DNA of 64,000 nucleotides from Sacculina carcini (GCA_916048095.2 OU696595.1:3668295-3732294); one strand, 5' to 3'. Numbered from the stretch's first letter, positions 29,950-62,696 are shown. Program-made: numbers and translations. Notes: generated from the sequence alone by a model not told the origin.

Positions 29950-31132
29950 ATGAATTCTGCTTCGATGCTGGCCGTTTTCTGCTCTCTGCTGCTGCTGGGG
30001 TCAATGACCTTGGCTCAGCCATTCGGCAACTTCCGGCGACCTCAAATTCCAAACATTATTCGGCCTCAATCTTCAGCCGAGGGTTTTGCGGACGCTCAAG
30101 GAACCGCAGCTCAAAACGGCAACACACAAATCTCCAATGTTCGCGCTTCAGCAGGGGTGAGTTGGTTTCTGCTGTGTCTGCTTCAGAGCAGCAGCCACAT
30201 TTCAAGAACTTCATAATTACACCTCGAATTATGCGCAGAAATTTGCTCTAGGCTGAAAATGTGGAATTTCTGCTCGAATTCTGCTCAGAAGTAGTTGGTT
30301 ATTCAGCTGATGGTTTTCTCATAGATTTCTGCTTAAATTCAGACATTGAAATCAAGAATTATGCCGTTTTAACTTTTCAATTTCTGTTGATTTCCAGTTT
30401 GCTATCACTCCAGGCGATTTTTGCCAAGATTCTTTTCCGATTCTGTTAAATTTCTGCTATTTTTTATTTATTAAATTCTCCAATTCTGAAATATAAAGTT
30501 TCTTTCAATTTTGTTTAAACTCAGCCTTATTCTTGCTCCAAGTCTAAATTTTCCTCAATGATTTTTGTTAAATTTCTGCTTCAATTTAGTTTAATTCCTG
30601 TTCAAGTTCTGTTCAACTTCTGCTTATCTTCTACTCAAAATCTCAATTTTCTGCTAAAATTTTCTCAATTTAATTACTGCTTAAATTTCTGCTCTGATTT
30701 CTACTCTTCTCAAGAATAATTTATTCACCACAAAATCCAACAAATTTCCATTCAAATCACGCGTTTTATTGGCGTAATAATTTCAATGACAAAAGTTTCT
30801 TTAAAAAAACAATCACTTACATAATCGACTGATTTTTATATTATTAGATTCATTATATATTATCTATACTATTTACACTTAGGTGTGTGTGTGAATATAT
30901 AAGTGTTTATTTGAATGTTTATGTGTATGTATGTTTGTGTGTGTGTGTGTGTTTTCAGGGGCATGTGCGTGGTAGCGGATCTTCCAGTAACCTCGCGACG
31001 GCTTTAAGTGTGGGCCAGTCGACTCCGTTCGGCAGTTCTCAGCAAGTTCTCACCAACGCCCAGTCAAACCAAAAAACTTTCGATCGTCCTCAATTTCTGC
31101 ATCAGAGAAGACGCATTTCGTTCCGCGGCTAA
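29950..31132 (+). CDS. Small secreted protein, 126 residues, two coding exons
   Basis: Coding exons are 29950-30156 and 30959-31132 (phase 0 junction). The first ATG follows a 5' UTR with no upstream ATG; a 5' UTR intron runs from 29485 to 29865. Residues 1-22 (MNSASMLAVFCSLLLLGSMT, then LAQ) form a clear signal peptide. The mature part is about 104 residues, rich in Gly, Ser, Gln, Asn and Arg, without cysteine. The C-terminus is FLHQRRRISFRG, so a basic site precedes a short peptide ending in Gly. That arrangement can yield an amidated peptide, but only one such site is present. I recognise no family. AATAAA follows at 31219. Both acceptors are preceded by TG repeats. A matrix or signalling peptide role is inference only. 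Confidence 0.72.
30157..30958 (+). other. Intron with degenerate TTCTGCT repeats
   Basis: From about 30235 to 30715 the intron carries many TTTCTGCTTAAATT-like words at 20-40 bp spacing, all in the sense orientation. The acceptor is a TG tract plus TTTTCAG. Confidence 0.6.
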
Positions 31133-35502: not shown

Positions 35503-35554
35503 ATGCACACTTTATTGTGTTTGGGCGTAATATTGACCTACGCGGCACAATTAG
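35503..35554 (+). CDS. Modular gene exon 1: signal peptide
   Basis: First ATG after the TATA box. [17 protein letters not shown] is a signal peptide; cleavage after YAA or AQL is likely. Donor TTAG|GTAAGG, phase 1. Confidence 0.75.
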
Positions 35555-44377: not shown

Positions 44378-47300
44378 TTTAGGTTAGCTTCCAGAGTACA
44401 CATGGTATCACCGCACACACAGGGTGGTAATAGTGAACTTGCACTCTTCCCCCACTGGCTAATGGATTTGCCCTGTAATTTATAATAATAACAATAAAGA
44501 ACGAGATAACAAGAGGAACAGGAGGAACAGGAGAGCGGCCCCTGAGCTACTCGCTACTTGAGCGTTCGCTGCCTAGATTAAGCCACCACCCCGGCGATGA
44601 GCGATGGGCGATTTCTGATGCATCTTCTTGATTTCTTGATGGGCGATTTCTGGCTGCAGCAGCTCTACACGCACCAATTCTGGCGTGTACCGCCGACAAC
44701 ACGATGTCGAAGTCGGAGGTGTAAGCCCCTTCCCTCGCCATAGCCCACTCATAAATTGGGTCGGGTAGAACTTCGTAAAACGTGGCGCGAAACGCCAAGT
44801 CCTCGGTGTTCGAACCCACACGGCGACCTAGACGCTCTAGGTCATCCGCAAAAGCGCCAACGGACTCGCCAGACTGGAGCTGGCGAGCCGAGAAGCGCCT
44901 CCACGCCTCTTGGGGAGACATTCCGAACTCGGCGACCAGCGTGGCTTTCACCACGGCCCACTGTGAGGCGTCGCCCACGAGCATGCGCCGGTAAAGCCGG
45001 CGCGCGCTCCCATCCAGCATATGGTCGACCATTTCGCAAGGGTCGACCTGCTGGACACGACATAGCCGCTCAAAATTGGCCAGCCATTCGGTAACGTCAA
45101 GAGTGACGTCACCATCGAAACGCGGTAGGAACCGCCCTATCCTATCGAGGATCGACCCGCGGGCCTGCATTAGAATGTTGGCCAATTGACCCGCATCCGC
45201 AACGGGTCCTGCGGCCCCCTGCCTGGGTATATCAGCCTCCTGACCGAAGTATTCGGGTTCGCTATTGGAACCTTCTCGACAAACTCGCGTTTGCCACCTC
45301 CACCGCCGGCGGCCTCAACCATACCAGCCGAAATAGCTTGCAAGCTAAACGGGGCAAAGCGCTCTCACCTTCGCGCAGACGAGAATTCGTCCACACAGTA
45401 TCCGCTGAAGCGTACACTCAGACACGGGAGCGATGCGTCCAAAGCGCAGGCCATTAACAGAATGACGCTCGAACGCTCGCAAACCAGCTTCACACGCGCC
45501 AGCTGATACACGCCTCCGGCAGTCGGCTCAAATTTCGACCAATGAGCGCACGTGTTAAAAGACTGCGCTACATAGGCGCCAGCCAATCAGCGCACGCCTT
45601 TCACGCGAACCATTGGAACGTTCTCGAACGTTCAGTGGCGTCCAAATTAACGCCACATAAATAATATACAAGCACAACCTATATAAAATAGATCATTAAC
45701 AAATTCATTTTATAACCAAATATATCGTATTGTGACCACCATTTTTAAAAATATATTTTTGTGTGTTTGCGTAGAGCCTGAAGAAAAACAAACAACTACT
45801 ACAACTACTACTACTACAACTACTACAACTACGACTACAACTACTACTACAACTACTACAACAACTACAACTACAACTACAACTACAACTACTACAACTA
45901 CTACTACTACAACTACAACTACTACTACCACTACAACTACAACTACAACTACTACTACTACAACTACAACAACTACTACTACAACTACAACTACAACTAC
46001 TACCACTACTACAACCACAACTACAACTACAACTACAACTACAACTACAACTACTACAACTACTACAACTACTACAACTACTACAACTACAACTACAACA
46101 ACAACTACAACTACAACTACAACTCCAAAACCCAGCCGTTCAAGTGAGTGTACTAGAAAATTTCCCAAAAAATGGCCAAGTACACTCTTAACAAGGGCGA
46201 AATACATATATTTGTAGATTCATTGATTAAGTTTTTGAAATCTTCAAAACCACATTGTACAAATATAATATTTATATGATATTTTTATTTTAATTTGCAC
46301 CAGATATTGTTGAGAAATATTATTTAACCAAAAAGTATTTAACAAAAAAATTGTTTTATCACTCGGCTCATTTTAACCCAAAAACTATTTTATTTTCACA
46401 GGATCAAAAGGTATTTCCGGAGCTCCAGGATTTACTCTGGGGTCCAAAGGTACGAAAAAATTATTCAATTCTTCACTCAAACATTGTTTTTATAGCATCT
46501 CTAAATTTGAATTGCCATATATTCTAAATCCATGTCCTAGATCCTCAATTCACATACTAGATCCTAAATCTAGATCATATATCCTTAATTCAGATCGTAG
46601 ATTCTAAGTCTAGGTCCTTGATCTTAAATCCAGGTATTAAATCCTAAAATCACATCGTGGATCCTGAATATAGGCCCTATATCTTAAATATAGGCCCTAG
46701 ATCCAAAATCTTGATACTAAATCTTAAATTTACATCTTAGATCCTAAATCCAGGTCCTAGATCCAAAAATAAGCTTCTAGATCCTAAATTAATGTCCTAT
46801 ATTGTATGTCTGTAGATCCTAATTCAGCCATAAATAATGGATAGTCCTAAATCAAATTGCTTACATGCAGATATACTTTGTTGTCAATTAATTAATTAAT
46901 ACGTGACGATGTGGAAAACAAGAGTACGAGTTTGAGCTTAGATTTTCTTGAAAATATTTTGAGCTATTACTTAACTGAATATTTCACTTGAATCCTTCAA
47001 ACCTTGGATTTCGCTCACTTGGGTTGCTCATGACTTCACATAATAAGGAGTTTTTCTTGAATTCATTATATATCTTTTTTGGTTAGCTTCCAGGGTACAA
47101 GTGGGGCCACCGCACACACAGGGTGGTAATAGTGCACTTGCACTCTTCCCATGGTTCTGGACTTGCCCTGTAATTAATAATAATAATAATAATAATACCA
47201 CATCGCGTGCCATTTGGCAATTTCATTTATTTGTTCGCAATTGGCATCACTATTTGTGGGTGTGTATCTGTCAACAGCTGTTGTGTCGAGCGTGATCGCC

Positions 47301-49449
47301 TCAAGCGTTAAGCCCGCAGGCCAGGGTCATGTGAGCGTTTCGTGGAAGCCCAGTCGCCAGCAGATTGTCAGCGGCCAATCAGTATACATTTATCAAATCA
47401 CCGCCTCGGGGCGTGTTACTCTCGTCCAATCAGCGATCGCGAAGGCCGGAGCTATCAAAGTGGCGACATCTAGCGGTCAACATGTGCAATATATTGTTTC
47501 CACACACAAAATCACCACAGGTATGTTAACCAATAACTAGGCTGAAAATAATTATCCTAAATAATTATAAAAACAATTTCCCTATTATATTTAATTTCTT
47601 GTGATATTTTAATATTATATATCATTGTTTAGAATATTTATATTAATATTAAGTATATTGTTATTATATTATATATATATATTATATTGTATTATAAAAA
47701 TATAATTATATTCAAATGTGAAAATAAAGAATATAAAAATTATATAATATTACAATATTTATGGTAAAATAGTCACAATCTATTTTTCGGATAATTTTAG
47801 CTAAACTATATTTTGAAGAAAATCAATTCGTAGCCACTAATTTAATTCTGCTTTGAAAAATATTTTTTAAACACATTGATTATCAATTTGTTAAAATATA
47901 GCAAGATTTGTGTTGGCTTTTGTAAAGGATATTCTATAAACTATTCAAATGGAATTATAATTTTCAACTGGTTTTGCTTTAGTTTGATAATCGTTGAATC
48001 ATTTATAAATAAATAAAGTTTTAAATCTATGGATTACAATAGACGACGCATCTATAGTGGTTTTACTAAGCTAAATATTTCTTGAATCCATTTGTCCATA
48101 ATATTAATTAATATAAAATGATCATCATTTTTTATGAATTGTTTCATTATATTTATTTGTTAAAAAAGGATTTATCTTTAATTTTCTGTAATGAAATATT
48201 AATGTAATATTTCTCTTTAATGTAATATTACATATTTTAAAATTATATTTGACAAGCAATTATATTTGAAATTCCGTTGGTTATATTGAGTAGAGTTTTC
48301 AAAACAAAAAACAAATCTTGCGCAAATGATTTCAGGTCAGAGTACCTCGCTGGTGTCCATCACTAAACAAACGAGTACCGGAGGTCAGTCCACCACTATT
48401 TCGTGGTCGGCTAGCAAATCTACTTCCAGCTCTATCTACTGGTATACAGTATACGCCATTTCTGTAGACGGTACTCGTACGGAGGTAGCGCGTATACCCG
48501 TGCAACCGGGCACTATCGAGTACAACTTCAACGGTGTTGTACAAACGGGAGTACAGTACTTGGTGGTGTCTTCCAAGCAAGCTAGTGGTACGTACCGACA
48601 CACAGACAATCATACAAGCAAAACGCGCACACACACAGACACACACTTATGTACATACATACACATATACATATACAAATGCTAACATAGATGCCAATTT
48701 CGAGGAAAACAAATAAGAAAAGGTTTCAAATGAAATATATGAAGTATTATACAAATAAAATTACCACAAATTAAAAGATGTCTAAATGAAAAGAGAAGAA
48801 AACAATTTAGACGAATAATTATTTATTCAAATATCAAATTTGGCACACACACAGACATACACGATTCAACTATACAAATACTTACATAATGCAATGTTGT
48901 TTAAACTTTCACTACATAATAGGAAACTATTAATATATAATATAGTAAATTTAATTAATTTGTTAATTTGAATTTTGTTATTCTGTAATATTTTTCAAAT
49001 ATATGTCGTTCATTTTTAAACAATATTGACAACGTACAAATTTGGCAAATATAAAATAGGAGTATTGTAAAATTCAAATATTAAATGGCTTATGAAATAT
49101 AAATATAATTAAGAAACTTTTGTTTTTAATTAGAAAACAAAAAGTCAGATTAATTTTGCAAATTCTTAATGTTTGGCTTACAGTGGAGTCGTCTCGCTCT
49201 GTGGTGCCATTCAAATGGAACCGCGGTGCCAAAGTGGTTTCCTTCAGCCTGCATGTGAGCAAAACGACCGTGGTTTATTTGTACCGGGTACATTGTACCA
49301 CTGGGACAATTATATCCTTGGGAAAAGCTACCGTTGGAGTTACAAGCACAGGCAAACGCTTTCAAATCTCCACGGGATCTGTGACCAAGAACTACAAGCT
49401 GCTACTCACCACAGTACACCTGACTAAACCACAAGGTAACCTACACACT

Positions 49450-49510: not shown

Positions 49511-50830
49511 ACACACACCCATATAAAAAGTTAGGTCTACCAATTGTAGATGTTAGTAGGTTGGGAGAATTTTCGGTCACAGTCTATATATATTTTACCG
49601 GGAAAAACAATTTTGCTTAACAAAAACGCAAGTTAAAAAAGAGGACATTCACAAAATGTAGTTTAGCAAAATGTAATTTAGCAAAAATATAGTGCCGAAT
49701 TGAAGGCAACAATTATTTATCGAGCGACAGTATTTAATTAACCAACAACACAATTGTTCAAGAAGAAATAATCATAATTGTAATAATAGAAGTGATAATC
49801 AGAAGAATTCAAATTCAAGAAGAAATAATCATAATAATAATAATCTTTTCATAATCTGAGCGTGTTTGTATATTTTTATATTTTTATATTCACAACTGCG
49901 ACGATATTGACGTATCGAATTCATTGCAAACGATGCAAGACCAACAACATCAAACTCATAATTTATTTATTTTCATTTAATGTATTTTGTCACATGACTA
50001 AAAAATTCCCCACATTCTGTGATAGTATCTAGTATTTTCTCGTTAATTTATCATATGTTTGGTTTTATTTTAATAACCTATGTGTGTTTGTATATTTTTT
50101 CATTTATCTAGTCTCAACTGCGACAATATTGACGCATGAAATCAACCAAAAACGCCGCAAAGTAATGCTGGAGTTCATAGTTCCCCCCTTTTATATGACG
50201 TCATTTAGTATTTTCTTCTTAATTTATCATATATTTTGTATTTTTAATACGTCGTGTGTGTGTGTGTGTTTTTGTATTTTTTCATTTATCTAGTATCAAC
50301 TGTGACAATCTTGACGCATAAAATCAACCAAAAACGCCGCAGTGCCAAGCTGAAGTTCATAGTTCCCCCATTTTCGGTGACGTCATCAACTTCCACTCGC
50401 CTTGTCTACATTTACCAATCAAGACCCGGACTCAGTCATCCGCAACTGGTTAAAGTCAAACAGATTCGCGCCAAAAAACTCGTATATTCCGTCACTATTA
50501 ATCATCTATGCTCCAAGTACCAGTACTCGTTCACTGTGACAACAAAACCGCTATACGGTGAGCTCCATCACTAATCAAAAATACTCTATCCACTTATTTT
50601 TCTTCCATGTTTTTCTGTGCTGTCAATTTTTTCAACTTGAACAAATTTAAAATCATCCGTTATGTAGTTTATGTAATAAATGTCGAATACTGATGAATTA
50701 TTTGATGATAATATTATATTTATTATAAAATTAATTAAACATTTGTGTGTCAATTTCTCAGCTAATATTTATTGTTTGTGTTGTTATATTTTTGTAAAAA
50801 TTAAATATCTGTAATATTATTGATACGACG

Positions 50831-50869: not shown

Positions 50870-52539
50870 ACACACTCTCTCTCTCTTTCTCACTGCAAAC
50901 AATCACACCACAAAGCACAAATTAACTTCTTGATGGCTGAAGACTACTAAACTATTTCCAATGTTTCAAAGTCCACCAAATTTGGTTGAAATTCTTTCAG
51001 GCGCTGCTCCTGAGGTGTACGGCGTGAAGACGATATCGGGCGGTCGAACCCAAGTAAATTTTGTGTCTCCAGTATCGTCTTCTGGACAGTTTTACATTTA
51101 TCACCTATCGGCGGGAGGAGAGGCTAAAGCGCTTTTGGTGAAAACCATTTCTGCCAACTCGAATCGTCATATTTACAAAATCACTATCAATCAAATTCTG
51201 GTCGGAAAATTGGCCGTGACAAGTCGTCTAATCACAGGTGCCCTGACAATAATATCTCGAGCTTTGTTGGCAAAGGAACCTCTCCGTTTCCTCATTAATT
51301 TGTTCTAAATATATATTATTCAATTATTTACCTGTTAAATATGATTTAAAGGAATAATATTAACCGAAAACGAAATGCGGCTGGAATATCGGCAATTCGT
51401 CTCAATAATAATACAAATATCAAGTTTTGTGTTATAATAATATTAAATTAATAAGTTAATAATAGTAAATTAACTAGTAACTAGTAGTAGTAACTAACTA
51501 GTAGTAGTAATTAACTAGTAACTAGTAACTAGTAGACAAGTAAATTAATAGTTTGTTCTGCGAGCTCCTCCGGAGGAGTAGAACTAAAATATTCATAAAG
51601 AATAAAGAATAAAAGAATAATATTACTATTATCATAAAATTTACGCCAGTATCAAAATAAGCCCATTTAAGCAAACGTTTTTTGGATTTTGTTTGTAAAG
51701 TAAGTGTACCTTTTATAAATGTAAATTGCCAATGTAAATGTGTGTGAAATTTGATATAATTTTTCTCAATTATTTTGTTGAAATAGTTTTATAGTTTCAT
51801 CGTATCATACGCCATATACGTTCGATGGATATTTATTTTTATTCTCGTTTTGTTGTAATAAATCTTGCGAGGTATTTTGAAACATGTTATAACCATCTGC
51901 TCCGTTTATACTTGATATAAAATAGCTTACTTATATTAGCTGTTATATCATTATATTATATCATATATATTAGGTATTATATATAATTAAATTACTTATT
52001 TGGTGAGTAAAGCATAATTCAATTCTTAACCATGCAATTTTGAATGTGTGTATGTCTGTGTGTGTATGTCTGTGTGCGCGTGTGTGTATGTCTGTGTGTG
52101 TATGTCTCTGTGTGTGCTTGTGTGTGTCTGTGTGTGTGTACTTTTGGCTGCAGATTCCAGTGTGTTGTTGTCACAATGGAGAACAATTCAATCCAAATCA
52201 GGAGCCTTAATAGCACCGCCTCGAAGTGAGATATAAGATATCACTAACACTCACCTCCATATTTGGGGCAAATACTGACTGATTGATTCACTGATTGATT
52301 GTTATATTGATTAATTGATTCAATAATTGTTTGATTGCTTAAATGACTGATTAATTTATTGATTAATTGTTTGATTAGTTAATGGATGGAATGATTGATT
52401 GTTGTATTGATTGATTAATTGATTGATTGGTTTATTGAGTTTTCGATTGATTGACTGATTGATTGCTAATTAATGGACTAACTAATTAAATACTTGATTG
52501 GTTAATTAATTAACTAATTGTGTAACTTTATATTAGGTT

Positions 52540-52614: not shown

Positions 52615-53552
52615 TGACTGATTGATTGATTAATTAATTGACTAATTGATTGATTAATTGATTAATTAACTGATTGAATAATTCATTGATTAATTGATTA
52701 ATTAATTAATTAATTAATTGATTTATTGATTATTAATTAATTAGTCAATTGATTGATCGATTGATTGATTGGTTAAGTGATTGAATAATTAATTGATTGA
52801 ATAATTGATTGATTAATTGATTGATTTGTGGGAAAGACATCAAGCGCACTCCTCTAGAGCAGTTGAACGTGCACATCAAGTTCGTGCAGTCTGGACGTGC
52901 TGCACTTCTCCAGTGGACCTACAACGTCGGCGTGCCTAAGCGTCGTGCCGGCAAGTTCTTCGTCTACCAGGTGTCTGAAGGTCGCATCAGACTAGTGGCC
53001 AAGGTGAAAACAAAGAGCAGAATGTCCCAGTACAAGACCACCGTCAAGGATCTGAGACCAGGAGTGAAGTATATGTTCTACGTTACATCAACTTGCCTGA
53101 TAAAAAGAGGTTAGTGTGTGGAGTTAATCGTAATTATTACTATTATAATTATTAATTACAGACAAGTCCAGTAGCATGGGGGAAGAGTGCATGTGCACTA
53201 TTACCACCCTGTGTGTGTGCGGTGGTCTCATGTATTCCCTGGAAGCTAACTAAATAATGTATACAGACATCAATAGAGTTGAGAAAAGGTAAATACTTCT
53301 AGAGAGAAAGAAAGCTCGAAAACAAAATAGTAAATAAATAACAATAAACAAATCATACGATAACACTGCATAATGTCACTCCGCCCACACTTGTATATAA
53401 ATTACAACAATCAACAATAATTGAATATGAGATTCATTCAATTACTACAATAAACAACAAATATGAAAAAATGGGGAAAAATTATTAAATAAGAAAATAA
53501 ATATAACTGAATAGCCTTTCTCAGATTAACTTTATTTGGTTGTATGTTGTTT

Positions 53553-53595: not shown

Positions 53596-56500
53596 TGTGT
53601 GTGTGTGTGTGTTTGTGTGTGTGTTTGTGTGTGTGAGTTTGTGTGTGTTTGTGTGTGCGTGTTTGTGCGTGTTTGTGTGTGTGTGTGTGAGTTTGTGCGT
53701 GTTTGTGTGTGTGTGGGTATGTGTTTGTGTATGTTTGTGAGCGGTTCTGTTTGTGTGCGTGCTTCTATATTCCAATGTTTTTGCTGTTTCTAATATTGTC
53801 TTTCAAAGTTTTAAATATCAAATGTTTTTGTTTATTTATTTTTCTGATAACAACGTACGTTAACTGTCTTGAAGACACAACGAAAAATTTGCTTAACATC
53901 TTGACCATAATTTAATTGAAATTGAGGAACATTGAGCGAAAGTTGAATTCACACACGGTTGAGGAATTTTTTGGCAATAATTTATTCAGCGGTTATGCCA
54001 CGGAAAACGCTCGTGTGTTAGCAACAGTCTTGGTTTCCTCTGATGTCTCCCTTATATAGCGCTCTTCAATTCTGCTCCGTTCTTAGTCAGACTTAGGGTT
54101 TCTTGTAGATAAAACGCTGGCGTGCAATTTTTACGAATTACGGCGTTTCCGTTGACAAAACCTAGTGTAGCTGTTTGTTTCCAGAAAGGAATGCTTGGAA
54201 AACGTGTTCTGCAAGGAACATGTTGTATAAGGATGAAATACATTATTCCTAGTGGGACAAGGAGATTATTCCTCGAGGGTTATTCTTCGGAGAAGTTATC
54301 ACTCCGGTTAGAGAGCCACTGATGTTGTGGATTGGTGAATTTGTTGACAAACTCGGACCCTGACAGTAGTGATGGTAAATTAAGCCGCTGACATCATTCA
54401 TCTCCTCGCCCTGTCTTCACCGCTTGAGATTGCGGCGTAGAAATAAAAATGAAATTGACAAAAGGAGACTGGAAGTGTCTGCCTTTGGTTGGGAATTCAG
54501 CCTGAATTCACTGTGTGATTTCAGCACACGATAGTGACCAGATAGCTGGAATTGTATCCTGATGTTAGATAACCAGCAGGGTGCATCCTTCATTCAGCAG
54601 GTGTTGTGCTCGTTTCTGCAGAGTGTGCAGGCACCATTTTCAATAAATCACCTTGTCAAATGAGTATACGACAATCTGATGGTTCATCTGAACTCCTCAG
54701 AATCGACAGAATCCCTCATCGTCTCATGATGTTGTTGTTGACGTAACTCATTGTCTAGTCTTATTATATCCCAGAATTATCGAGATAATCAGTATGAGCT
54801 CCTGAGATGGGTTTAACCACAGATCTTTTGTGGTGTGCATGTAGTTGGGCTGCATTCAGCACAGACGTCATTGCTGGAATGTTTGACCTTCTTCTAGCAG
54901 CTCAGTGAAGTTCCTGGATGTTCAAACTACGTCCTATTTCTTCCAGGGGTAAACTCTGGAACGGCCACTATGATGAATGCCCAGTTTTAATCGGCGAAAC
55001 CTTATAGCTCCTTTCTCCAGCGCTTCATTTGCCGCGCTCTGCGTCATGAATGTTAGCAATGCGTAACAGAGCCAGCCTTGGCTACCGTGCAGCTTCGGCG
55101 GCGCCCGACGTCGTTCAATGGCAATTTCAGTGATGGCTCCGTATCTACCAAACATATCGTGCAGCATGAATTCATCAACACCTGGCATGAAACCTTCCAC
55201 GTAAATGACCCGACCGTCGACCGTATCGCTCTCATTTCTTGCAGCTGCCGCCACCAGAGGAGACATCATCGTATCATCATCACTGGCATCGTCACTTGCA
55301 GCACATGGCTGTGTCGCAGCAGAGTCACGAGTCGGTGACGAACAGATGATCCACCACAGCATGTCGGTGCAGTCGTCCTGCGGTGCTGGCGGAGCAAACA
55401 GCTCGAAATTGGGCCAGTCGAAGGGGCCAGTCGTAAATTGGTCCTCAGTGTTGGGAAAGAGTGGCTTGATGCCTTTCTTCTGCGACAAAGTCGAACTGTT
55501 GCCGGCGTAGCTGGTCGTGACAGTCGAGTGTGTGGCTTGATTTATTGTCGGATTCACTGAACTATCACGCTGGCTTGGTTCAGTTGCTGTTTTCTCAGCT
55601 CGTTTCCAGCGGGTTTGTTTCTTAGCCTCGCGCCTCTTCTCACTGGTTTCTATGGCAACCGCCGACTGTACACGTGATCTGTACTCCTCCAGCAAGACTT
55701 TCCGCTTCTTGCGAGGAGGAATGTCGACTTCAATCAGCTGGGGATACTCGCTGTGCTCCAGATAATGTCCTGTTAGTGCGTCTGATGATGTGTATGATGG
55801 TTGCACTTCTGCAACAAGATTGAGGTTTTGAGACGTCAAGAAGCTGCCAGTTGGCACGGTGACCGCCGAATATATCCGTCTTCTCTTGTCTGCAGGCAAT
55901 GTTGATGTGCCCACTTCACTATCATCATGTCTCCTCTTACCATGAGAGCAGGAAGATGTTGCCTGTCGTTCACGTGATGCTCTGATGTTCACGTGATCTT
56001 TGACATCGGTGGCAGTAGATGTAGTCTGTCGTCTGTGCATGAGCTTGATGTTGGCCACCATGCGCTTCTCTTCTGCTTCCGATATCTTCACTGTTCTTCT
56101 CCTAGCATCAGAGGAGTGTTTCGAACTGTATGATGATGTCTTCATATCACTACGCTCCCTCTTACGAGAAGAGTGACTGGATGCGTGATGTCTGTGCACC
56201 TTGGATTTTTTCCTCTCATGAGTGTCTGATCTTATCCCATGATGATGTTGTGATCTTTGCCTGTGGTCCTCCGATCTTGATGTTCTGCCTTCACTCTCAG
56301 TTGTAGGCCAAGATATCGGAGAAGACCCCATGTTTGTAGCTTTGGCTTGTTGCTTGTCAATGAGACAATATGTTCGTATGAATTTTGACAGTACGAGTAA
56401 GTATCACAGGCACTCAATTGCTTAGAAATCGCATTGAAACTGACACATTAATGAAATTGAAAGATCCAACACAACAATGCTGCTAAATTGAGCCAGACAT

Positions 56501-59181
56501 GCACCTGTCATATGCAAATATTATATGCAATGCAAATATTAAACGAGCGCTTCTAACTGAATCACGCTAATATAAACAAATGACAATTTATTCGTATTAA
56601 TCTCAATGCATATTTTAAGAAGTCTATTTTAAGAACCTTTGCGGTATGCATAAAGTGCTTGTTATATGCATGAAGGATTGTTTGAAATATTATAATACAA
56701 TTATGAAACAGGATAATAGTTTTTCAGTGAGCGATTATATTGTTCTATAATATATACTGGCAATTATTAGAAGGCTCCATATATTTGCTGTCTGTATAAG
56801 CTAATGATTGTAATTGACTGGTATTGTTTGCTGAAATCGATTATAAGATGTCTTGGCTAAATCGATAAACACACTAGAAAAAACGGTTTATTTTTCGACA
56901 AGCAGTTATTTATCCGGATATTGAGTGTTGTACTCTGCTCTTCTGTTCAAAATCATCCAATCATTATACTTCCAGTTATACTCAATATACAGTGCCATCC
57001 CGATATAAGAGTGTTGTCGGGAGAGGTGAGAAAAAGTCTCTCTTAAGTCCGAGGAAAATTACACGTAAAGTATATAAAAGACGGGCCCGAAGAAAGACTA
57101 TCTTATAACCGGGGTTCTCTTATATCCGGGGGGAACACTGTATTTATATAGAAGTGTGATACAATGTCAAATATGTTCAATAATTTACCAACGAATTAAA
57201 TGAACACTCATATGATTGATAAAATTATTGAAAAGTTAGTAAGTATTAGATGTCAGTCATGTGTTGTGTCATGCATTCTGGGGAGGTGGCCCTCTCTAAT
57301 ACGTCTTCCGTTCTTGTGGCGTCGTAGCGTGGATAGGGTTGGTTCTGCGGTGGCAGCGAGCTGCACGGGACACACCTGTGTGTGTTCATAAGCTTCGACT
57401 TCTTCTCGTGTAGCAGCTGTCAATTGAGGTATTCAACCTTCAAGTGCTGATGAAGTATTTGTTGTTTTTGTTTGTTTATTTATCGATGAAGGTGGTCTTA
57501 TCAATGTGGCTCGCATCAGTAAGACAGTTGCTTCTGGGAGTAGGAGTGTTTCACTCTCGTGGAAGCGTCCACAATCTCTCAATAAACAAGATCACTTCTA
57601 CTTTGTCTACGCCCTTATTCCCGACGGCCGCTTCAAGCTGATGGCTCGAAAATCGATCCAGACATCGAGTTCTTCCGTTCAAATTGTGCTAAAAAATATT
57701 CGTCGCCCGGGAAGCTACACCTTCATTGTGGCAACAGTCAAACTGCGAACTAGTGAGTCAACACACAGTCCATTATTATTATAATAAATTACAGGAAAAT
57801 TCAGTAGCATGGGGGAAGAGTGCAAGTGCACTATTATCACCCTGTGTGTGTGCGGTAGCCTCATGTGTACCCTAGAAGCTAGCAAAATAATGTATACAGA
57901 GATAAACAGAGTTGAGAAAAGGTAAATAATTCTAGTGAGAAAAAAAAATCGAAAACAAAATAGTAAATAAATCACAATAAACAATTCATCCCATAACACT
58001 GCATAATGTCATTCCGTCCACACTCCTCAATAACTTACAACAATCAACAATAATTGAATATGAGATTCAATAAATTAATCAATATGTTTTTGTGTTTGTG
58101 TGTTTTCAGACAAACACAAATTAGTTCCGTTCTTCAATTACGGATTAGTGGCTTCGATTATGCATATTAAATTGTCTAACTTGATCAGTACGTCTCGAAT
58201 AACTAGCACCAAGTGAGCTATTCTTCCAGTTTATGGTTTTTAGTATTATATTGGATTCCATTTTGATTTATTTATATTTGTTTAATTTCCAAATGTAATT
58301 AATATCAGCAAAATTCGTGTAAATAAGAGAGCACTAAACTACTTCAAAAATAACAAATTTACAATTTAGCTTACGACATTTCATGTTGATACTTCAAAAA
58401 TACTTCAAAAATAACAAATTTACAATTTAGCTTACGACATTTCATGTTGATAAACAATTTAATTTAATTTAATTTAATTTAAAGAGGTTTTTGTTGTCAG
58501 CATAAAATAATGTTAGATAAATTATCTGTAAATATGTAAGTATCTTGTAAATATTTATGTTTACACTTTTACAAGAAAGCTGTTTTTGATATTCATTTAT
58601 TGTTGAATGTTCTATTCAGAATCACGTCTTCAAGATCTAGTGTCATGACGGGAGCGCCTGAGGGCATTGGATCGCTTTTTGGCGGCAAGAGCCGAAAAAT
58701 CAAGAAGGTTTTCCACAAGAAAAAGTCGTCCAAAGTCTCCTCCCACTACCGTTTCGGAACCAAATACAAGAAGTCGTACGTTAGTGGACCTGGCTTCAAG
58801 TATTCGCATAAACTCAACTGGAAGAAATCATCGAAGCAAAAAGGACACGGGAATTTATCGCTGACTAAAAAGTTCAAATTGCGTAAGCACAAAAAGCATC
58901 ATTTTGTTAAGAAACATTCGGTGACCAAGAAGATTCGTATGACTCATTCACGATCGACGGCATTTAGAGGAAAGTTCAGACTGGGAAAATACAAGATTCA
59001 TTCCCACAAGAAGACACACCACAGCCATTCGCATAGGCAAGTAACAAAAATGCGACACAAATCTATGAAAATCCACAAAACCAGCATTCACAGAAAGACC
59101 ACCCATACTCACACACGTACAGTACATAAACACCATTGGCATAAGAAAACTATACACAAACAGACACATATTGTCGGATAA
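35503..59181 (+). CDS. Giant secreted modular protein: 17 FN3/NDNF-like domains, poly-Thr linker, Lys/His-rich tail (23 coding exons)
   Basis: Joining the 23 exons listed separately below gives 5,421 nt, exactly 1,806 codons plus TAA, with no internal stop. Order: signal peptide (1-17), six type A beta-sandwich domains (about 18-499), four type B domains (500-828), about 110 threonines (835-945), a short Gly-rich exon, seven more type B domains with one 24-codon spacer (968-1585), a 35-residue linker and a 187-residue Lys/His-rich tail. Each domain sits on one exon of 225-273 nt bounded by phase 1 introns, the classic unit for exon duplication. Type B domains keep a central FYIY/VYxV strand plus a W before it, like fibronectin III and the repeats of NDNF (neuron-derived neurotrophic factor). 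Cysteine is almost absent. Secretion is well supported; a matrix, skeletal or adhesive role is inference. Exons 13 and 19 and the exon 20 start are the weakest points. Confidence 0.78.
35938..36067. repeat. (TGTGTCAG)n in intron 1 of the modular gene
   Basis: About 15 TGTGTCAG-type units, followed by a second TG tract running up to the exon 2 acceptor. Confidence 0.85.
36206..36430 (+). CDS. Modular gene exon 2: type A domain 1
   Basis: 75 codons, phase 1 to 1, no ATG of its own. Signature [20 protein letters not shown], then [12 protein letters not shown]. The YALF/FAVF strand followed by PEF is the hallmark of type A. Confidence 0.78.
37230..37466 (+). CDS. Modular gene exon 3: type A domain 2
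   Basis: 79 codons, phase 1 to 1: [35 protein letters not shown]. Acceptor TTTCAG, donor GTGAAA. Confidence 0.8.
37638..37890. repeat. TG-rich microsatellite before exon 4
   Basis: TGTGTTTG-type repeats fill the end of intron 3, up to 15 bp from the acceptor. Confidence 0.85.
37905..38156 (+). CDS. Modular gene exon 4: type A domain 3
   Basis: 84 codons, phase 1 to 1: [40 protein letters not shown]. An NFT sequon is present. Confidence 0.82.
38240..38450. repeat. (TGTGTCAG)n in intron 4
   Basis: About 25 TGTGTCAG-type units just after the exon 4 donor. Confidence 0.88.
38827..39075 (+). CDS. Modular gene exon 5: type A domain 4
   Basis: 83 codons, phase 1 to 1: [39 protein letters not shown]. 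It has one of the few cysteines. Acceptor with a normal pyrimidine tract. Confidence 0.82.
39752..39832 (-). mobile_element. tRNA-like sequence (SINE head) in intron 5
   Basis: Minus strand: TTATAGCTCAGTTGGTTAGC (A box) and CCCGAGTTCGATTCCC (B box) at tRNA spacing. Five of seven acceptor pairs form, but the T stem does not. It is probably a tRNA-derived SINE fragment, not a tRNA gene. Confidence 0.5.
39953..40210 (+). CDS. Modular gene exon 6: type A domain 5
   Basis: 86 codons, phase 1 to 1: [46 protein letters not shown] tract before the acceptor CCCATAG. Confidence 0.8.
40778..41002 (+). CDS. Modular gene exon 7: type A domain 6
   Basis: 75 codons, phase 1 to 1: [39 protein letters not shown]. 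Last of the type A series. Confidence 0.8.
41422..41655 (+). CDS. Modular gene exon 8: type B domain 1
   Basis: 78 codons, phase 1 to 1: [42 protein letters not shown]. The YVY/YIY strand replaces the YALF of type A. Confidence 0.82.
42123..42386 (+). CDS. Modular gene exon 9: type B domain 2
   Basis: 88 codons, phase 1 to 1: [45 protein letters not shown] tract before acceptor TTTTTGATAG. Confidence 0.8.
43194..43442 (+). CDS. Modular gene exon 10: type B domain 3
   Basis: 83 codons, phase 1 to 1: [53 protein letters not shown]. Classic W-strand and FLYEV strand. Confidence 0.82.
44016..44255 (+). CDS. Modular gene exon 11: type B domain 4
   Basis: 80 codons, phase 1 to 1: [44 protein letters not shown]. 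Last domain before the Thr linker. Confidence 0.82.
44308..44374. repeat. (AT)n microsatellite in intron 11
   Basis: About 32 AT units, directly left of a dispersed-repeat copy. Confidence 0.95.
44381..44497 (+). mobile_element. Short dispersed repeat with (AAT)n tail, copy 5
   Basis: Same family as 2831-2961, with ATGGTATCACCG replacing ATGAGGCCACCG and CCACTGGCTAATGGATTTGC at the end. Confidence 0.72.
44520..45660. mobile_element. GC-rich retroelement fragment inserted in intron 11
   Basis: About 1.1 kb of GC-rich DNA with abrupt edges inside an AT-rich intron. It carries one gag-like ORF on the minus strand and a GC-rich leader upstream of it, including an inverted GAACGTTC pair near 45614-45632. 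No LTR pair, protease or RT was seen. Confidence 0.6.
44547..45185 (-). CDS. Gag-like ORF of a Ty3/gypsy-type retroelement
   Basis: An open frame of about 208 residues from ATG near 45170 ([20 protein letters not shown]) to the stop at 44547; the frame is also open further upstream without an ATG. Text such as [53 protein letters not shown] and DDLERLGRR is typical of the capsid part of Ty3/gypsy Gag proteins, which assemble virus-like particles. There is no zinc knuckle and no pol. High GC sets it apart from its surroundings. It could be a truncated recent insertion or a co-opted gag gene; the intact frame keeps both open. Confidence 0.65.
   Translation of the reverse strand: MANILMQARGSILDRIGRFLPRFDGDVTLDVTEWLANFERLCRVQQVDPCEMVDHMLDGSARRLYRRMLVGDASQWAVVKATLVAEFGMSPQEAWRRFSARQLQSGESVGAFADDLERLGRRVGSNTEDLAFRATFYEVLPDPIYEWAMAREGAYTSDFDIVLSAVHARIGACRAAAARNRPSRNQEDASEIAHRSSPGWWLNLGSERSSSE
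45775..46143 (+). CDS. Modular gene exon 12: poly-threonine linker
   Basis: 123 codons, phase 1 to 1: EPEEKQ, about 111 consecutive Thr codons (ACT and ACA, two ACC or so), then PKPSRS. The codon mix ACT/ACA forms a hexanucleotide-like tandem array. Long Thr runs in secreted proteins are usually heavily O-glycosylated, stiff linkers. No interruption of the Thr run is visible. Confidence 0.75.
46402..46449 (+). CDS. Modular gene exon 13: short Gly-rich exon
   Basis: Only 48 nt, phase 1 to 1: [16 protein letters not shown]. Acceptor TTTTCACAG and donor AAAG|GTACGA. Omitting it would also keep the frame, so it may be alternative. Confidence 0.55.
46510..46850. repeat. Degenerate minisatellite in intron 13
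   Basis: About 14 diverged units of 20-24 bp built on TAGATCCTAAATCCAGGTCC. Confidence 0.75.
47081..47197 (+). mobile_element. Short dispersed repeat with (AAT)n tail, copy 6
   Basis: Same family as 2831-2961; nine or so AAT units in the tail. It ends only 80 bp before exon 14. Confidence 0.75.
47278..47520 (+). CDS. Modular gene exon 14: type B domain 5
   Basis: 81 codons, phase 1 to 1: [47 protein letters not shown]. Good FN3-like W and YIY strands. Confidence 0.83.
48336..48587 (+). CDS. Modular gene exon 15: type B domain 6
   Basis: 84 codons, phase 1 to 1: [47 protein letters not shown]. Confidence 0.83.
49184..49435 (+). CDS. Modular gene exon 16: type B domain 7
   Basis: 84 codons, phase 1 to 1: [55 protein letters not shown] tract (49442-49514) starts right after the donor. 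Confidence 0.82.
49880..50202 (+). pseudogene. Truncated tandem copies of exon 17
   Basis: Copy at 50112-50202 repeats the exon 17 acceptor (TTTCATTTATCTAG) and its first 90 bases ([21 protein letters not shown]) 182 bp upstream of the real exon, then breaks off without the FN3 core or a clear donor. A more worn relic (ACTGCGACGATATTGACG) lies near 49894. Confidence 0.8.
50294..50557 (+). CDS. Modular gene exon 17: type B domain 8
   Basis: 88 codons, phase 1 to 1: [55 protein letters not shown] tract about 30 bp before acceptor TTATCTAG. Confidence 0.82.
51001..51237 (+). CDS. Modular gene exon 18: type B domain 9
   Basis: 79 codons, phase 1 to 1: [44 protein letters not shown]. Short and without the usual Trp. 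Confidence 0.8.
52154..52225 (+). CDS. Modular gene exon 19: 24-codon spacer
   Basis: 72 nt, phase 1 to 1: [16 protein letters not shown], then ALIAPPR. Acceptor GGCTGCAG after a TG tract, donor GTGAGA. It looks like the first strands of a type B domain whose rest is missing; skipping it keeps the frame. Confidence 0.5.
52265..52826. repeat. Degenerate (TTGA)n/(ATTA)n block with (AT)n core
   Basis: About 560 bp of TTGATTGATTAATTGA-like tetranucleotide repeat around an AT tract at 52541-52610. It runs to about 10 bp before exon 20. Confidence 0.92.
52837..53109 (+). CDS. Modular gene exon 20: type B domain 10
   Basis: 91 codons, phase 1 to 1: [47 protein letters not shown]. There are two in-frame acceptor choices (AAAG at 52836 or TCTAG 21 nt later); neither has a pyrimidine tract. 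This exon is more GC-rich than the others. Confidence 0.78.
53131..53450 (-). mobile_element. Dispersed repeat with (AAT)n tail, copy 7, long form
   Basis: The 105-bp core is followed by about 190 bp that also match 57890-58080 (GAGTTGAGAAAAGGTAAAT, CATAACACTGCATAATGTCA, CAATCAACAATAATTGAATA). These two show that the element is at least 310 bp long and that the other copies are shortened. Confidence 0.78.
53545..53760. repeat. (TG)n compound microsatellite in intron 20
   Basis: TGTGTG with TTTG and CGTG steps. Confidence 0.9.
53930..54365 (-). mobile_element. Possible solo LTR
   Basis: On the minus strand it starts TGTCAGGGTCCGAG, a start common in Ty3/gypsy LTRs. It then holds a TATATAAGG box and, about 80 bp later, AATAAA. 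The far end and a target duplication could not be fixed. A plain 3' flank of the nested gene is the alternative. Confidence 0.4.
54934..56331 (-). CDS. Nested intronless gene: basic Ser/Arg/His-rich protein with C-terminal RRM
   Basis: 465 residues from ATG 56331 in good context (A at -3, G at +4), inside intron 20 of the modular gene on the opposite strand. The first 120 residues are Arg/Ser/His/Lys-rich ([29 protein letters not shown]), like SR-type splicing proteins. The middle is low-complexity with several KKRK/KRRR nuclear-localisation-like sites. Residues about 375-460 form an [11 protein letters not shown] (RNP2), [28 protein letters not shown] (RNP1, atypical) and [14 protein letters not shown]. 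The RLKLG ending resembles the Boule/DAZ class, but this is weak. Lack of introns suggests a retrogene. Function is likely nuclear RNA binding. The 3' UTR runs below 54934. Confidence 0.8.
   Translation of the reverse strand: MGSSPISWPTTESEGRTSRSEDHRQRSQHHHGIRSDTHERKKSKVHRHHASSHSSRKRERSDMKTSSYSSKHSSDARRRTVKISEAEEKRMVANIKLMHRRQTTSTATDVKDHVNIRASRERQATSSCSHGKRRHDDSEVGTSTLPADKRRRIYSAVTVPTGSFLTSQNLNLVAEVQPSYTSSDALTGHYLEHSEYPQLIEVDIPPRKKRKVLLEEYRSRVQSAVAIETSEKRREAKKQTRWKRAEKTATEPSQRDSSVNPTINQATHSTVTTSYAGNSSTLSQKKGIKPLFPNTEDQFTTGPFDWPNFELFAPPAPQDDCTDMLWWIICSSPTRDSAATQPCAASDDASDDDTMMSPLVAAAARNESDTVDGRVIYVEGFMPGVDEFMLHDMFGRYGAITEIAIERRRAPPKLHGSQGWLCYALLTFMTQSAANEALEKGAIRFRRLKLGIHHSGRSRVYPWKK
56990..57140. 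mobile_element. MITE of Tc1/mariner (pogo-like) type, 151 bp
   Basis: Inverted ends CAGTGCCATCCCGATATAAG and (other strand) CAGTGTTCCCCCCGGATATA, with TA on both sides (56988-56989 and 57141-57142). Ends starting CAG with a TA duplication fit pogo/Tigger-type elements. Confidence 0.65.
57250..57425 (+). mobile_element. 5'-truncated copy of the tRNA-Val-headed SINE
   Basis: Matches 17352-17525 with only a few mismatches (CATGCATTCTGGGGAGGTGG, GCAGCGAGCTGCACGGGACA, TTCATAAGCTTCGACTTCTT) but lacks the tRNA-like head. It ends 66 bp before exon 21. Confidence 0.8.
57492..57752 (+). CDS. Modular gene exon 21: type B domain 11
   Basis: 87 codons, phase 1 to 1: [51 protein letters not shown]. Donor ACTA|GTGAGT. 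Confidence 0.82.
57768..58080 (-). mobile_element. Dispersed repeat with (AAT)n tail, copy 8, long form
   Basis: About 310 bp matching 53131-53450. Like that copy it starts within 25 bp of a type B exon's donor. Confidence 0.78.
58110..58212 (+). CDS. Modular gene exon 22: 103-nt linker exon, phase 1 to 2
   Basis: [20 protein letters not shown], then [14 protein letters not shown]. An earlier GT (58188) would leave the wrong phase for exon 23; donor AA|GTGAGC at 58213 gives the correct one. Same length and phases as the minus-strand exon 62594-62696, with VP and a later H at the same positions. Confidence 0.72.
58341..58451. repeat. Perfect 50-bp duplication
   Basis: 58341-58390 is repeated exactly at 58402-58451, 61 bp apart, followed by an AATTT pentanucleotide tract (58453-58480). 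Confidence 0.92.
58620..59181 (+). CDS. Modular gene exon 23: Lys/His-rich C-terminal tail
   Basis: 187 residues, extremely basic: [67 protein letters not shown], stop TAA. Almost no acidic residues. Such tails bind polyanions, mineral or acidic partners (inference). Confidence 0.82.
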
Positions 59182-59504
59182 TCGGAAAATATGCAAACAT
59201 TTCGGACAATTTATGCCAAGTTAATGTCAGAATGTTAGTCTAGAATAATATTTTTACGGAAAAAGCGCCAAAAAACTGTGTGAGCATTGGAAAAATTTCG
59301 AGTGAAATACAAGAAATGAAACTCAATTTGTGTGGCTTCAAATTTATTGAACAATTATATACACTTCAAATTTATTGAATTCATTATATACATTAACTTG
59401 TTGCGTGTATTTGTGTCACAATCGCGAGTTAATCAAAGCGTTTGTTTTCATTAACTGAAGAAAACATTGCACATTATATATTGAACAATTTTTCAGCGTT
59501 GCTC

Positions 59505-59510
59505 AATAAA
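59505..59510 (+). terminator. Poly(A) signal of the modular gene
   Basis: AATAAA 324 bp after the stop; further AATAAA words follow near 59605-59625. Confidence 0.55.
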
Positions 59511-59731
59511 TGGATCATTAACTTCTGAACGAGCTTGGAAAATATGTTTCCAACTCAAAGCGGCGACAGCTAAATATATTGAAATGAATATGCAACCAAT
59601 ATAAATAAACGCAAAGTCTAAATAAATGCATAGCTTCATTCAAAGGCGAAAATATATCAGCTTCCTTTTATTCTATCGTGAAAATAGATGCCAAAAATTA
59701 AGCGAAAAAAAAAATATATATATGTGGTATT

Positions 59732-59737
59732 TTTATT
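59732..59737 (-). terminator. Poly(A) signal of the convergent basic-repeat gene
   Basis: AATAAA on the minus strand, about 80 bp after that gene's stop. The two convergent 3' ends are therefore about 200 bp apart. Confidence 0.55.
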
Positions 59738-59815
59738 CAGATAATGCTGCAAGATACAACATCTGCAAGATCCTGATAAAAACTGTCGGTCGCCTGATGT
59801 GCTTGCAGCTGAGTG

Positions 59816-60845
59816 TTAGCTCGATCTGCGACTTGAAGATCTTGAAGTAACATGCTCCCCTCTGCCGGAACCCTTAGATCTGCGACTTGAAGAGCTTGAA
59901 GTAACATGTTTCCTTCTGCCGGAACCCTTAGATCTACGGCTTGAAGATCTTGAAGTAATATGTTCCCCTCTGCCGGAACCCTTAGATCTACGGCTTGAAG
60001 ATCTTGAAGTAATATGTTCCCCTCTGCCGGAACCCTTAGATCTACGGCTTGAAGATCTTGAAGTAATATGTTCCCCTCTGCCGGAACCCTTAGATCTGCG
60101 TCTTGAAGATCTTGAAGTAGCATGTTTTCCTCTGCCGGAACCCTTATATCTACGGCTTGAATATCTTGAAGTACTATGTCTTCGTTTTTTTAATCCAGTT
60201 GATCTGGGTGTTAAATTTCCTGGAGTAATATGTCTTTGTTTCCTGAAATCCTTAGATCTACGACTTGAAGATCTTGAAGTAACATGTTTCTCTCTGCCGG
60301 AACCCATAGATCTACGACTTGAAGATCTTGAAGTAACATGGTTCCCTCTGCCGGAACCCTTAGATCTGCGTCTTGAAGATCTTGAAGTAGCATGTTTCCT
60401 TCTGCCGGAACCCTTAGATCTACGACTTGAAGATCTTGAAGTAACATGTTTCCCTCTTCCGGAACCCTTAGATCTGCGTCTTGAAGATCTTGAAGTGGCA
60501 TGTTGACCTTCTCTGAATCCTTTATATTTGAGTCTTGAAGATCTTGAGGTCAAATATTTTCTATTCTTCAATCCCTTTGATCTGCGTCTTGAAGATCTTG
60601 AAGTAGCATGTTGACCTTTTCTGAATCCTTTATATTTGAGTCTTGATGATCTTGAGGTCAAATATTTCCTATTCTTCAGTCCCTTTGATCTGCCTTTTGA
60701 AAATCTTGAAGTAATATGTTTCCGTCTCCCTAATCCCTTAGGTTTTCGTCTAGAAAATCTTGAAGTAATATGTTTTGGTTTCTTCAGTCTTCTAGACCCG
60801 GACCCTGAAGAGTTTGAGGATATGTGTAGTGGTGTTGTCAGTGCC
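59816..60845 (-). CDS. Last exon of the convergent gene: seventeen 18-residue basic repeats
   Basis: 343 residues. Each repeat is encoded by 54 bp and reads S-R-S-S-x-R-R-S-K-G-x-x-R-x-x-H-x-T. Repeats near the 3' end are nearly identical and the 5' ones diverged (for example SRFSRRKPKGLGRRKHIT), so growth probably proceeds toward the 3' end. Acceptor TTATACAG. Confidence 0.82.
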
Positions 60846-61818
60846 CTGTATAATATATGGATAAATATATAATACATTATTACAAATGGCTGGAAAATGT
60901 CAATCATGTATAGCACAAATATTTATCCAACGGTTATAACAAATATGATATACCTTTTACAATTTGATTTGTGCCAACTGAAATGAAATTGTTGTTGTTG
61001 TTGTTGTTAGTGGTTGAGCTCAGGTTAGGTTGAAATGCAGCACAGGCTAGGCTCAAATGCAGATGCACAATACAACTACTCTTGACTAACAGATAGAGAC
61101 TGGCAGATATCTTAGATCAGAGGGATGTGTATACGTAACTTGATGACAATTGGTTGCGTGACAAGGAAAACGATGAGAGATGATCAGACGAGCATGTACG
61201 CAGGTTTAGCACAAACAGAGTGACAGTTTGGCGAACGTAGTAGAGTCTCAGAATTTGCCCGAGTACAGCAATACTCAGTGACTGGTGATTAACTTTTGAA
61301 TAATAATCGGTTTTAGCTAGTGTCACAGGTGCTCATAAAGACCGGAATCTACCAGAAATTTGCTGAGTTGGGGAGAATACAAAAGATGATAGAGCATCAA
61401 ATGTAGCGATGATGGTGTATTGAGCGGGATGCTGTAGAGGAGAGCAGAACGACGGGTGCAGGGCAGTGTAGTAGAATCTGGGGCAGTGTAGTAGAATGTG
61501 CTCAACGTCCTGTCTGGTGTGACATGTATGAAGAGGAAAAAGGATAGGGATGATGTTTCCTGATGTTTTCCACAACTTCCACAGTGTATAACAAACTTCC
61601 ACAATGTTTAAATTGTGTTTCACATGTTTGTCTAGTCTGTCGAGTCTGTCGCACTGATGCCTGGTAGTGACATTTAAATACACAATATAATTTAAAATTC
61701 TCACTTGATTTTAATTTTATGAACTGTTCCAAGGTCTAAATGGATTTTGCAGATATAACATCATCTGATTATGCGATAATAATATTCAAGTACTGTTGAT
61801 CTAAATAGTTGCCCTAAG

Positions 61819-61859
<41 letters not shown>

Positions 61860-62696
61860 TCGTATGCGGTGCTATGCACACGCAGGATGTCTAGCACCAC
61901 ACACGGACACAATGTTCACACGCCTTTCAGATACATGCTTACTGAGTTTATGTTGACAATACATGAACATATGCTGCATTGTACAACTTTACAACTGAAA
62001 TTTTTCTTTGATAGTGTGAAACAATTGTTCTAAAAGTATTAAATTGTCCTAAATCCAGTAGTTGCTCTTAAAATTGAAGAGCTGCAAAAATTGCGCTAAA
62101 AACAAAAAGTTGCAAAAAGTAGCATTTATAACATATTTAATAACTCAGATCAATAAAATATAGATTTTTGGGCTCCTTATGATGAACAGATTCGATGATA
62201 AAAAAATTGCATTTGTAACAAAAGGTCACCCTATTAAGAAGGTATGATATTAAATATAATATCAATAATATAAATTGTGGTTCGAGTTGGGACCATTCAA
62301 AGTTCAGTTGGGACAAATCTTATTTCAGTTGGGACAAATCAAATTGTAAAATGTATAGATATTTACTCGCTCTCATTTTTCTATTATTCTACAACCTTCA
62401 TTTAAATGAGGGGGTATATTCGCATATTTTTACATTTTCCATTACACCTGATATTTTTACATTTTCTATTACACCTTTTTCAAATCTCCATTGCATGCTT
62501 ACGCTCAAATCTTTTATTACTTCCTTAACTTCCTGTCTAATGTGGTCTACTTTGAGTAAACAATACAGCTTAAAGGAGAATGAATGCACTCACGTTGTTT
62601 TGGTCGAATTGTCAATCGCTAGATCGGCACTAGTTGCAACATGCAGAAAATTGACAAGTGCAGCGATAGAAGCTTCTGGAACATTGCCACTCTCAT
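59816..62696 (-). CDS. Convergent paralogue: 3' end of a gene with an Arg/Ser/Lys/Gly repeat tail (2 exons seen, 5' part missing)
   Basis: Exons 62594-62696 and 59816-60845 join in phase 2 to give 377 residues ending at TAA; the entry phase of 1 requires more exons upstream, probably beyond the window. The first exon (ESGNVPEASIAALVNFLHVA, then STKT) has the same 103-nt length and phase 1-to-2 as exon 22 of the modular gene. The second starts with LTTPLHISSNSSGSGS, then seventeen 18-residue repeats of the form SRSSSRRSKGSGRGEHIT plus a partial one. The Ser/Lys/Arg/Gly spacing recalls silaffin-type silica-precipitating peptides, but this is only a compositional likeness. It is probably secreted, if its missing N-terminus matches the modular gene. 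Confidence 0.7.
59822..60720. repeat. 54-bp coding tandem repeat
   Basis: Tandem DNA repeat with TTGAAGATCTTGAAGTA on the plus strand in each unit. It underlies the protein repeats. Confidence 0.93.
61127..61604 (-). mobile_element. Decayed LINE C-terminal fragment with HC-type zinc motif
   Basis: Minus-strand frame holds HTCHTRQDVEHILLHCPRF, the C..C....H....C-like motif found after RT in several LINE clades. Frames are broken. It lies in the intron of the convergent gene. Confidence 0.55.
61820..61858. repeat. (TA)n(TG)n microsatellite
   Basis: About 13 TA then 5 TG units. Confidence 0.9.
62594..62696 (-). CDS. Convergent gene: 103-nt linker exon, phase 1 to 2
   Basis: Acceptor CCTGTGCTTGCAG, donor ACAAC|GTGAGT. 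Encodes 34 residues from ESGNVP to DNSTKT. Its homology to exon 22 of the modular gene rests on identical length, phases and position of VP and H. Confidence 0.7.

Follow-up and report, generated by a model that had tools for sequence, protein, structure and literature searches.

Two convergent FN3-like genes of Sacculina carcini: probable paralogues with oppositely charged heads and unlike basic tails

We analysed a stretch of 64,000 nucleotides from the genome of Sacculina carcini (GCA_916048095.2, OU696595.1:3668295-3732294; hereafter the window), in which a gene modelled on the plus strand and a gene modelled on the minus strand run towards each other. Both end in FN3-like exons, a linker exon of 103 nt and a terminal exon for a very basic tail. 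About 0.6 kb separates their stop codons, and this interval holds AATAAA motifs for either strand. Because the minus gene runs past the end of the window, the next 70 kb were added; coordinates above 64000 are those of this extended window of 134 kb, in which the stretch L002 begins at 64001. Genome searches covered 264 Mb in 43 contigs, and the window lies in contig C36. The modelled features are collected in Table 1.

Table 1. Modelled exons of the two convergent genes, and an open reading frame nested in the plus gene
Feature	Position	Strand	Description
Candidate signal-peptide first exon of plus gene	35503-35554	+	52 nt; donor TAG/GTAAGG; phase 1; based only on hydropathy and donor score
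Rival first exon, or start of another gene	29950-30156	+	MNSASMLAVFCSLLLLGSMTLAQ...; donor GGG/GTGAGT; phase 0; would join phase 0 acceptor 36226
N-terminal FN3-like exons 1-4	36206-36430, 37230-37466, 37905-38156, 38827-39075	+	modelled phase 1-1
N-terminal FN3-like exons 5-7	39956-40210, 40778-41002 (weak), 41422-41655	+	modelled phase 1-1
FN3-like exons	42123-42386, 43194-43442, 44016-44255	+	phase 1-1
Poly-threonine exon candidate	45775-46143	+	369 nt; phase 1-1; donor GTGAGT
FN3-like exons	47278-47520, 48336-48587, 49184-49435, 50294-50557, 51001-51237 (weak donor)	+	phase 1-1
Second-last FN3-like exon of plus gene	52858-53109	+	252 nt; mirror partner extended 66871-67155 (-)
Intronless open reading frame nested in an intron of the plus gene	54937-56331	-	465 residues; RRM match below Pfam cut-off
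Last FN3-like exon of plus gene	57492-57752	+	261 nt; mirror partner extended 64474-64737 (-)
Linker exon of plus gene	58110-58212	+	103 nt; phase 1 to 2; isoelectric point (pI) 10.6
Terminal exon of plus gene	58620-59181	+	Lys/His-rich tail, 186 residues; pI 11.9; stop 59179-59181
Terminal exon of minus gene	59816-60845	-	tail, 342 residues; pI 12.0
Linker exon of minus gene	62594-62696	-	103 nt; phase 1 to 2; D-ESGNVPEASIAALVNFLHVATSADLAIDNSTKT-T; pI 4.1
Last FN3-like exon of minus gene, by the linker	extended 64474-64737 (L002:474-737)	-	264 nt; modelled phase 1-1
Second FN3-like exon upstream of minus linker	extended 66871-67155 (L002:2871-3155)	-	285 nt; modelled phase 1-1

The plus gene was modelled with about 17 FN3-like exons between 36206 and 57752, all of phase 1-1. 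According to the splice-site models, each of these exons holds one FN3-like domain and the domains stand in tandem. The FN3-like exons of the pair encode one cysteine each or none. A first FN3-like profile, built from 10 exons of which two belong to the minus gene, found plus exons outside it at 43194 (E 8.5e-7), 47278 (E 2e-6) and 41422 (E 1.8e-4), the last being the sole convincing N-terminal exon in that profile. It matched 36206 (E 0.4) and 37905 (E 0.9) weakly and missed 37230, 38827, 39956 and 40778. For five of these six weak or missed exons the score is good only when they themselves are part of the profile, while 40778 reaches E 0.011 in the profile containing the N-terminal exons. 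The poly-threonine exon candidate, with PEEKQ, a long threonine run and PKPSRS, looks like a mucin-like insert between FN3-like domains. The exon at 50294-50557 is closely preceded, at 50112-50233, by a broken half copy of itself, a sign of exon duplication.

Compared with FN3 domain proteins, these exons are highly diverged, and each of the two modelled proteins closes with a linker followed by a basic tail of low complexity. A Pfam scan of eight open reading frames holding some of the plus FN3-like exons brought none to the gathering score; the best fn3 score was 17.4 against a cut-off of 25 (57428-57784). Structure prediction gave a beta-sandwich for 57494-57751, with a predicted local distance difference test score (pLDDT) of 87. 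A Foldseek search returned no clear match, which is not evidence of a new fold.

The two FN3-like exons of the minus gene pair one to one with the last two of the plus gene. In genome searches reporting E values up to 1, 64474-64737 found itself and the last plus FN3-like exon only (40% identity, E 3.3e-11), and 66871-67155 found itself and the second-last only (36% identity, E 4.5e-7). These searches score only the candidates of a loose first look, three for the first query and two for the second, and give lower bounds, so that more distant relatives could be missed. Pairwise BLASTP gave E 3e-21 for the 57492/64474 pair and E 3e-16 for the 52858/66871 pair, and with the two minus exons as queries among the FN3-like exons the same best partners were obtained. 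We also built a tree of 18 FN3-like exons, 16 from the plus and two from the minus gene, leaving out 40778-41002 and the poly-threonine exon and entering exon 37230-37466 with the bounds 37236-37475. It joined 57492 with 64474 (support 88/86) and 52858 with 66871 (92/93), and none of 200 bootstrap trees joined the two minus exons to each other. Exon order and phases of the two genes mirror each other as well.

This mirrored one-to-one pairing is best explained by the duplication of a block after the FN3-like domains had diverged from one another, and the block would have comprised at least two FN3-like exons, the linker and the terminal exon. We consider it very probable that the present convergent genes are paralogues derived from an inverted duplication. 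A preliminary description of the window, made from its sequence, had suggested an inverted duplication of the gene end, and the genome searches, the mirrored order and phases and the tree support it; minus-strand FN3-like exons of phase 1, for which it proposed a search past 64 kb, are present there.

The duplication is old. Codon positions 1, 2 and 3 are identical at 52, 59 and 28% in the last FN3 pair and at 53, 55 and 37% in the second-last; since third positions are near chance and the first two are conserved, both copies have apparently remained protein-coding. That the minus gene is instead a decaying partial copy, as its mere two FN3-like exons and the lack of a clear first exon among those found might suggest, is very unlikely in our judgement. 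Its four modelled exons are open and have usable splice sites despite the near-chance third positions, the first and second codon positions of its FN3-like exons are conserved, and the 17 repeat units of its tail are all in frame.

Over the roughly 67 kb searched upstream, to the end of the extended window, we detected no further minus-strand FN3-like exon at a profile E below 0.1 and no counterpart of the N-terminal FN3 type. With two FN3-like exons found as against about 17, the minus partner may not be a full copy. The preliminary description had expected a full partner with FN3-like exons of its own past 64 kb; the exons are there, whereas the completeness of the copy may not hold. It is nonetheless conceivable that the inverted duplication took in the whole gene and that the plus gene then gained FN3 exons or the minus gene lost exons. 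The half copy of exon 50294 is a sign that exons of the plus gene have been duplicated. The plus signal candidate of 52 nt and phase 1 can be matched, by eye, with a 52-nt phase 1 exon starting at an ATG on the minus strand. However, such an exon would need the poor donor TGA/GTACGT, which was not scored above the threshold; the missing counterpart of the N-terminal FN3 type also argues against a whole-gene origin. We rate it as possible, with clearly less than an even chance. It is a variant of the best explanation given below, with the same or an unspecified function, and the probabilities of the two overlap.

The preliminary description had rested on the two linker exons, and its account of them was borne out: both are 103 nt long, open in a phase 1 to 2 frame and flanked by AG and GT, with acceptors TTTTCAG (plus) and CTTGCAG (minus) and donors GTGAGC (plus) and GTGAGT (minus). 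The splicing of both exons to their neighbours is modelled. When the split first codon is counted, V6, P7 and H19 are common to both linkers, in agreement with the VP at residues 6-7 and the H near residue 20 that had been noticed. The peptides share 6 of 33 residues (18%). Their ungapped BLOSUM62 score is 21, a value reached by a fraction of 0.0002 of 5000 residue shuffles. Among the open phase-1 stretches of the form AG-103-GT on both strands of the 134 kb, two of 181 score at least 21 against each linker; as both linkers are in the set, these two are necessarily the query and its partner. Counting the query and its partner, nine of 62,055 open windows of 33 residues reach that score against the plus linker and seven against the minus linker. 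Taken alone, the linkers are thus suggestive but weak evidence of homology, and the case for paralogy is made by the flanking FN3-like exon pairs rather than by the linkers alone. An AlphaFold2 model of the minus linker, with the plus linker as the only other row of the alignment, predicts a single helix directly after VP (residues 7-32 of 33, pLDDT 85).

As had been described, both linkers lead into very basic terminal exons, and the contrast between a Lys/His-rich tail and one of seventeen 18-residue Ser/Arg/Lys/Gly repeats holds. The plus tail contains 22% K and 14% H, the minus tail 26% S, 22% R, 10.5% K and 11.7% G. The 17 units of the latter have the consensus KHVTSRSSRRRSKGSGRG, and Tandem Repeats Finder reports 17.6 copies of 54 nt. 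Some pairs of units are 100% identical and others 54-60%, with the frame kept throughout; these mixed identities indicate repeated growth of the minus tail, part of it recent. The replacement or runaway growth of a tail, proposed earlier, is consistent with the unlike tails and with a tandem array in which some units are identical. Homology between the tails themselves was rejected: their local alignment score of 46 lies below the shuffle mean of 74 and is reached by a fraction of 0.998 of 500 shuffles, and similarity over the first 45 tail residues of both genes has a p value of 0.19. The predicted tails are therefore alike in composition and not in order.

The heads of the two proteins differ in charge. 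Net charge is +16 (plus, 52858) and -11 (minus, 66871) in the second-last FN3 pair, and +13 (plus, 57492) and -6 (minus, 64474) in the last. The 16 plus FN3-like exons of the tree set range from -1 to +16, and the two minus exons are the lowest of the 18. The whole minus head, 216 residues including the linker, has a pI of 4.5. Heads and linker are thus basic in the plus protein and acidic in the minus protein, while both tails are strongly basic. In our view this opposite head charge, absent from the preliminary description, is the most interesting fact of the pair.

The best explanation of these findings as a whole starts from an old inverted duplication that would have copied the block of two FN3-like exons, linker and terminal exon. 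Both proteins would be secreted, as the candidate signal exons alone suggest, and the plus protein, with its roughly 17 beta-sandwich domains and a threonine stretch that is probably O-glycosylated, would form a long rod. The acidic minus head may bind the plus protein at its basic body or tail, and both tails, being basic, may bind polyanions, mineral, cuticle or a surface. The pair would thus function as a structural or adhesive secretion that assembles by itself. The tails would have diverged freely because charge matters and order does not, and the minus tail would have been enlarged by in-frame units of 54 nt. The facts fit secreted proteins that stick together, which may be regarded as a candidate function. 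Since the function is inferred only, we give this explanation, mechanism included, little better than an even chance.

Several points weigh against it. The adhesive or matrix function is deduced from composition and architecture alone. Drift could account for the charge split, which comes from a single pair of a single genome. In the plus gene, the acceptor at 57492 has a score of -0.5 and is outscored by a phase 2 alternative at 57520; the donor at 51237 reaches only -0.7. For the minus gene, the sole signal-like candidate has its ATG at extended 68963, and the donor that scores best for it is in an unsuitable phase. Both pairs in the tree have supports below the 95/80 star of the program, which leaves 9 of the 15 inner branches open and warns of long branches. 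As for the linkers, BLASTP of one against the other yields no alignment at E values up to 100, their ungapped DNA identity of 33/103 is not above that of shuffles (p 0.10), and codon positions 1, 2 and 3 agree at 27, 33 and 33%, giving no sign of constraint.

This failure of BLASTP and the low identity of the linkers could be taken to mean that the genes are unrelated, the FN3-like repeats of one family having arisen independently and the linker match being due to chance. That is hardly credible: the ordered one-to-one pairing of two FN3-like exons, the tree, the equal phases and the equal length of the linkers strongly disfavour it.

A further point concerns the hydrophobicity of the linkers. 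Their best 19-residue hydropathy means are 1.19 and 1.48, not far under the value of about 1.6 usual for membrane helices, and a membrane-anchored reading may apply. The same paralogues would then be type I membrane proteins with the FN3 domains outside, the linker helix spanning the membrane and the basic tail in the cytoplasm. The predicted single helix of the minus linker agrees with such a topology, and so does the place of both hydrophobic stretches between FN3-like domains and basic tail, FN3 receptors usually having the order FN3 domains, membrane helix, tail. Yet both means stay below the threshold, and the hydrophobic stretches contain H, N and K or D. The tails, moreover, are 186-342 residues long and consist of about 30% K plus R with almost no acidic residues, and such long basic tails are unusual for receptors. 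We therefore consider membrane anchoring unlikely.

The explanation by secretion can be taken one step further, to a linked two-component system in which copies of one protein with FN3 domains, linker and basic tail were driven to opposite head charge. The short acidic-headed protein, with its expandable Ser/Arg/Lys/Gly tail, would cross-link the long basic FN3 rod with its Lys/His tail, and the product would be a coacervate, a cement or a mineral-binding matrix. This specific form is an improbable one in our estimate. The titles and abstract openings listed by literature searches showed no charge-complementary adhesive or matrix system arising from one inverted duplication.

Silaffins are diatom proteins, and silaffin-like or histidine-rich mineralising tails resemble the present ones in their repeats of S, K/R and G and in the separate K/H-rich tail, a likeness in composition only. 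A reading in terms of sponge biomineralisation was dropped because the genome gives 29 matches to innexins, each being a matching stretch rather than a gene, and innexins are, to our knowledge, absent from sponges. The bulk cement proteins of barnacles, CP52k and CP100k, are described in passages of two papers as low in Cys, often strongly basic, with internal repeats and duplicated homologues (PMC8561864, PMC7177777); the predicted pI of CP52k homologues ranges from 4.2 to 11.5 across species, and His is given as below 1% in barnacle bulk cement proteins (PMC8561864). Compared by description only, the present pair is similar in its low Cys, its often basic character, its repeats and its duplication with a wide range of pI. 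It differs in the 14% His of the plus tail as against less than 1%, and the passages on CP52k and CP100k mention neither an FN3 fold nor a basic tail like those found here (PMC8561864, PMC7177777).

Mirror-image gene pairs are common, but in this one the folded parts have opposite charges and the tails are both extremely basic yet unrelated. If this interpretation is right, the pair offers a clean natural case of low-complexity tail evolution under selection for composition alone, and it bears on how two-part sticky secretions could arise from one gene. The 17 in-frame 18-residue units of the minus tail, being of different ages, make the growth of a repeat directly traceable. The linkers also suggest that phase, length and three residues, compared by eye, can be enough to indicate true homology missed by BLASTP.

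The introns of the two genes were compared by blastn for mirrored DNA similarity; the matches above 60 bits, among 52 in all, were dispersed repeats, the tail array matching itself, and a nested element. The last of these, an RRM-like element at 54363-56495 (-), has an inverted copy at extended 71520-73638 (+), about 15 kb away and 93.4% identical. We considered whether it belonged to the same inverted duplication and rejected this, as its high identity and its unlike placement relative to the FN3-like exons suggest that it was copied separately and at a later time. An in-frame stop interrupts the copy, and 54 of the base differences fall in nonsynonymous codons and 17 in synonymous ones, a pattern suggestive of decay. 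A short interspersed repeat of about 190 bp (57248-57444) lies just before the last plus FN3-like exon and has ten matches in the 70 kb beyond the window (L002-L008), 88-94% identical, in both orientations and two of them clearly partial. Copies at 65555-65751 and 65783-65956 lie in the corresponding minus intron; they were not counted for the duplication because the repeat is present elsewhere too.

Elsewhere, an Rfam scan of the window gave nothing at gathering scores. A non-LTR (long terminal repeat) retrotransposon at 18252-22403 has two open frames, the first with a PHD-finger match below the cut-off and the second with domains of an endonuclease and a reverse transcriptase. A tandem array of 30-bp units (about 55 copies, 13204-14887) starts at the end of an RRM-coding stretch, part of what we take to be an Aly/REF-like gene. 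The innexins of the genome make an arthropod likely. Among their matches, the one at L014 presumably resembles insect innexin 2, and seven lie in tandem at G000:C20:1127118-1146409 with near-equal scores, each in an open frame of 365 residues.

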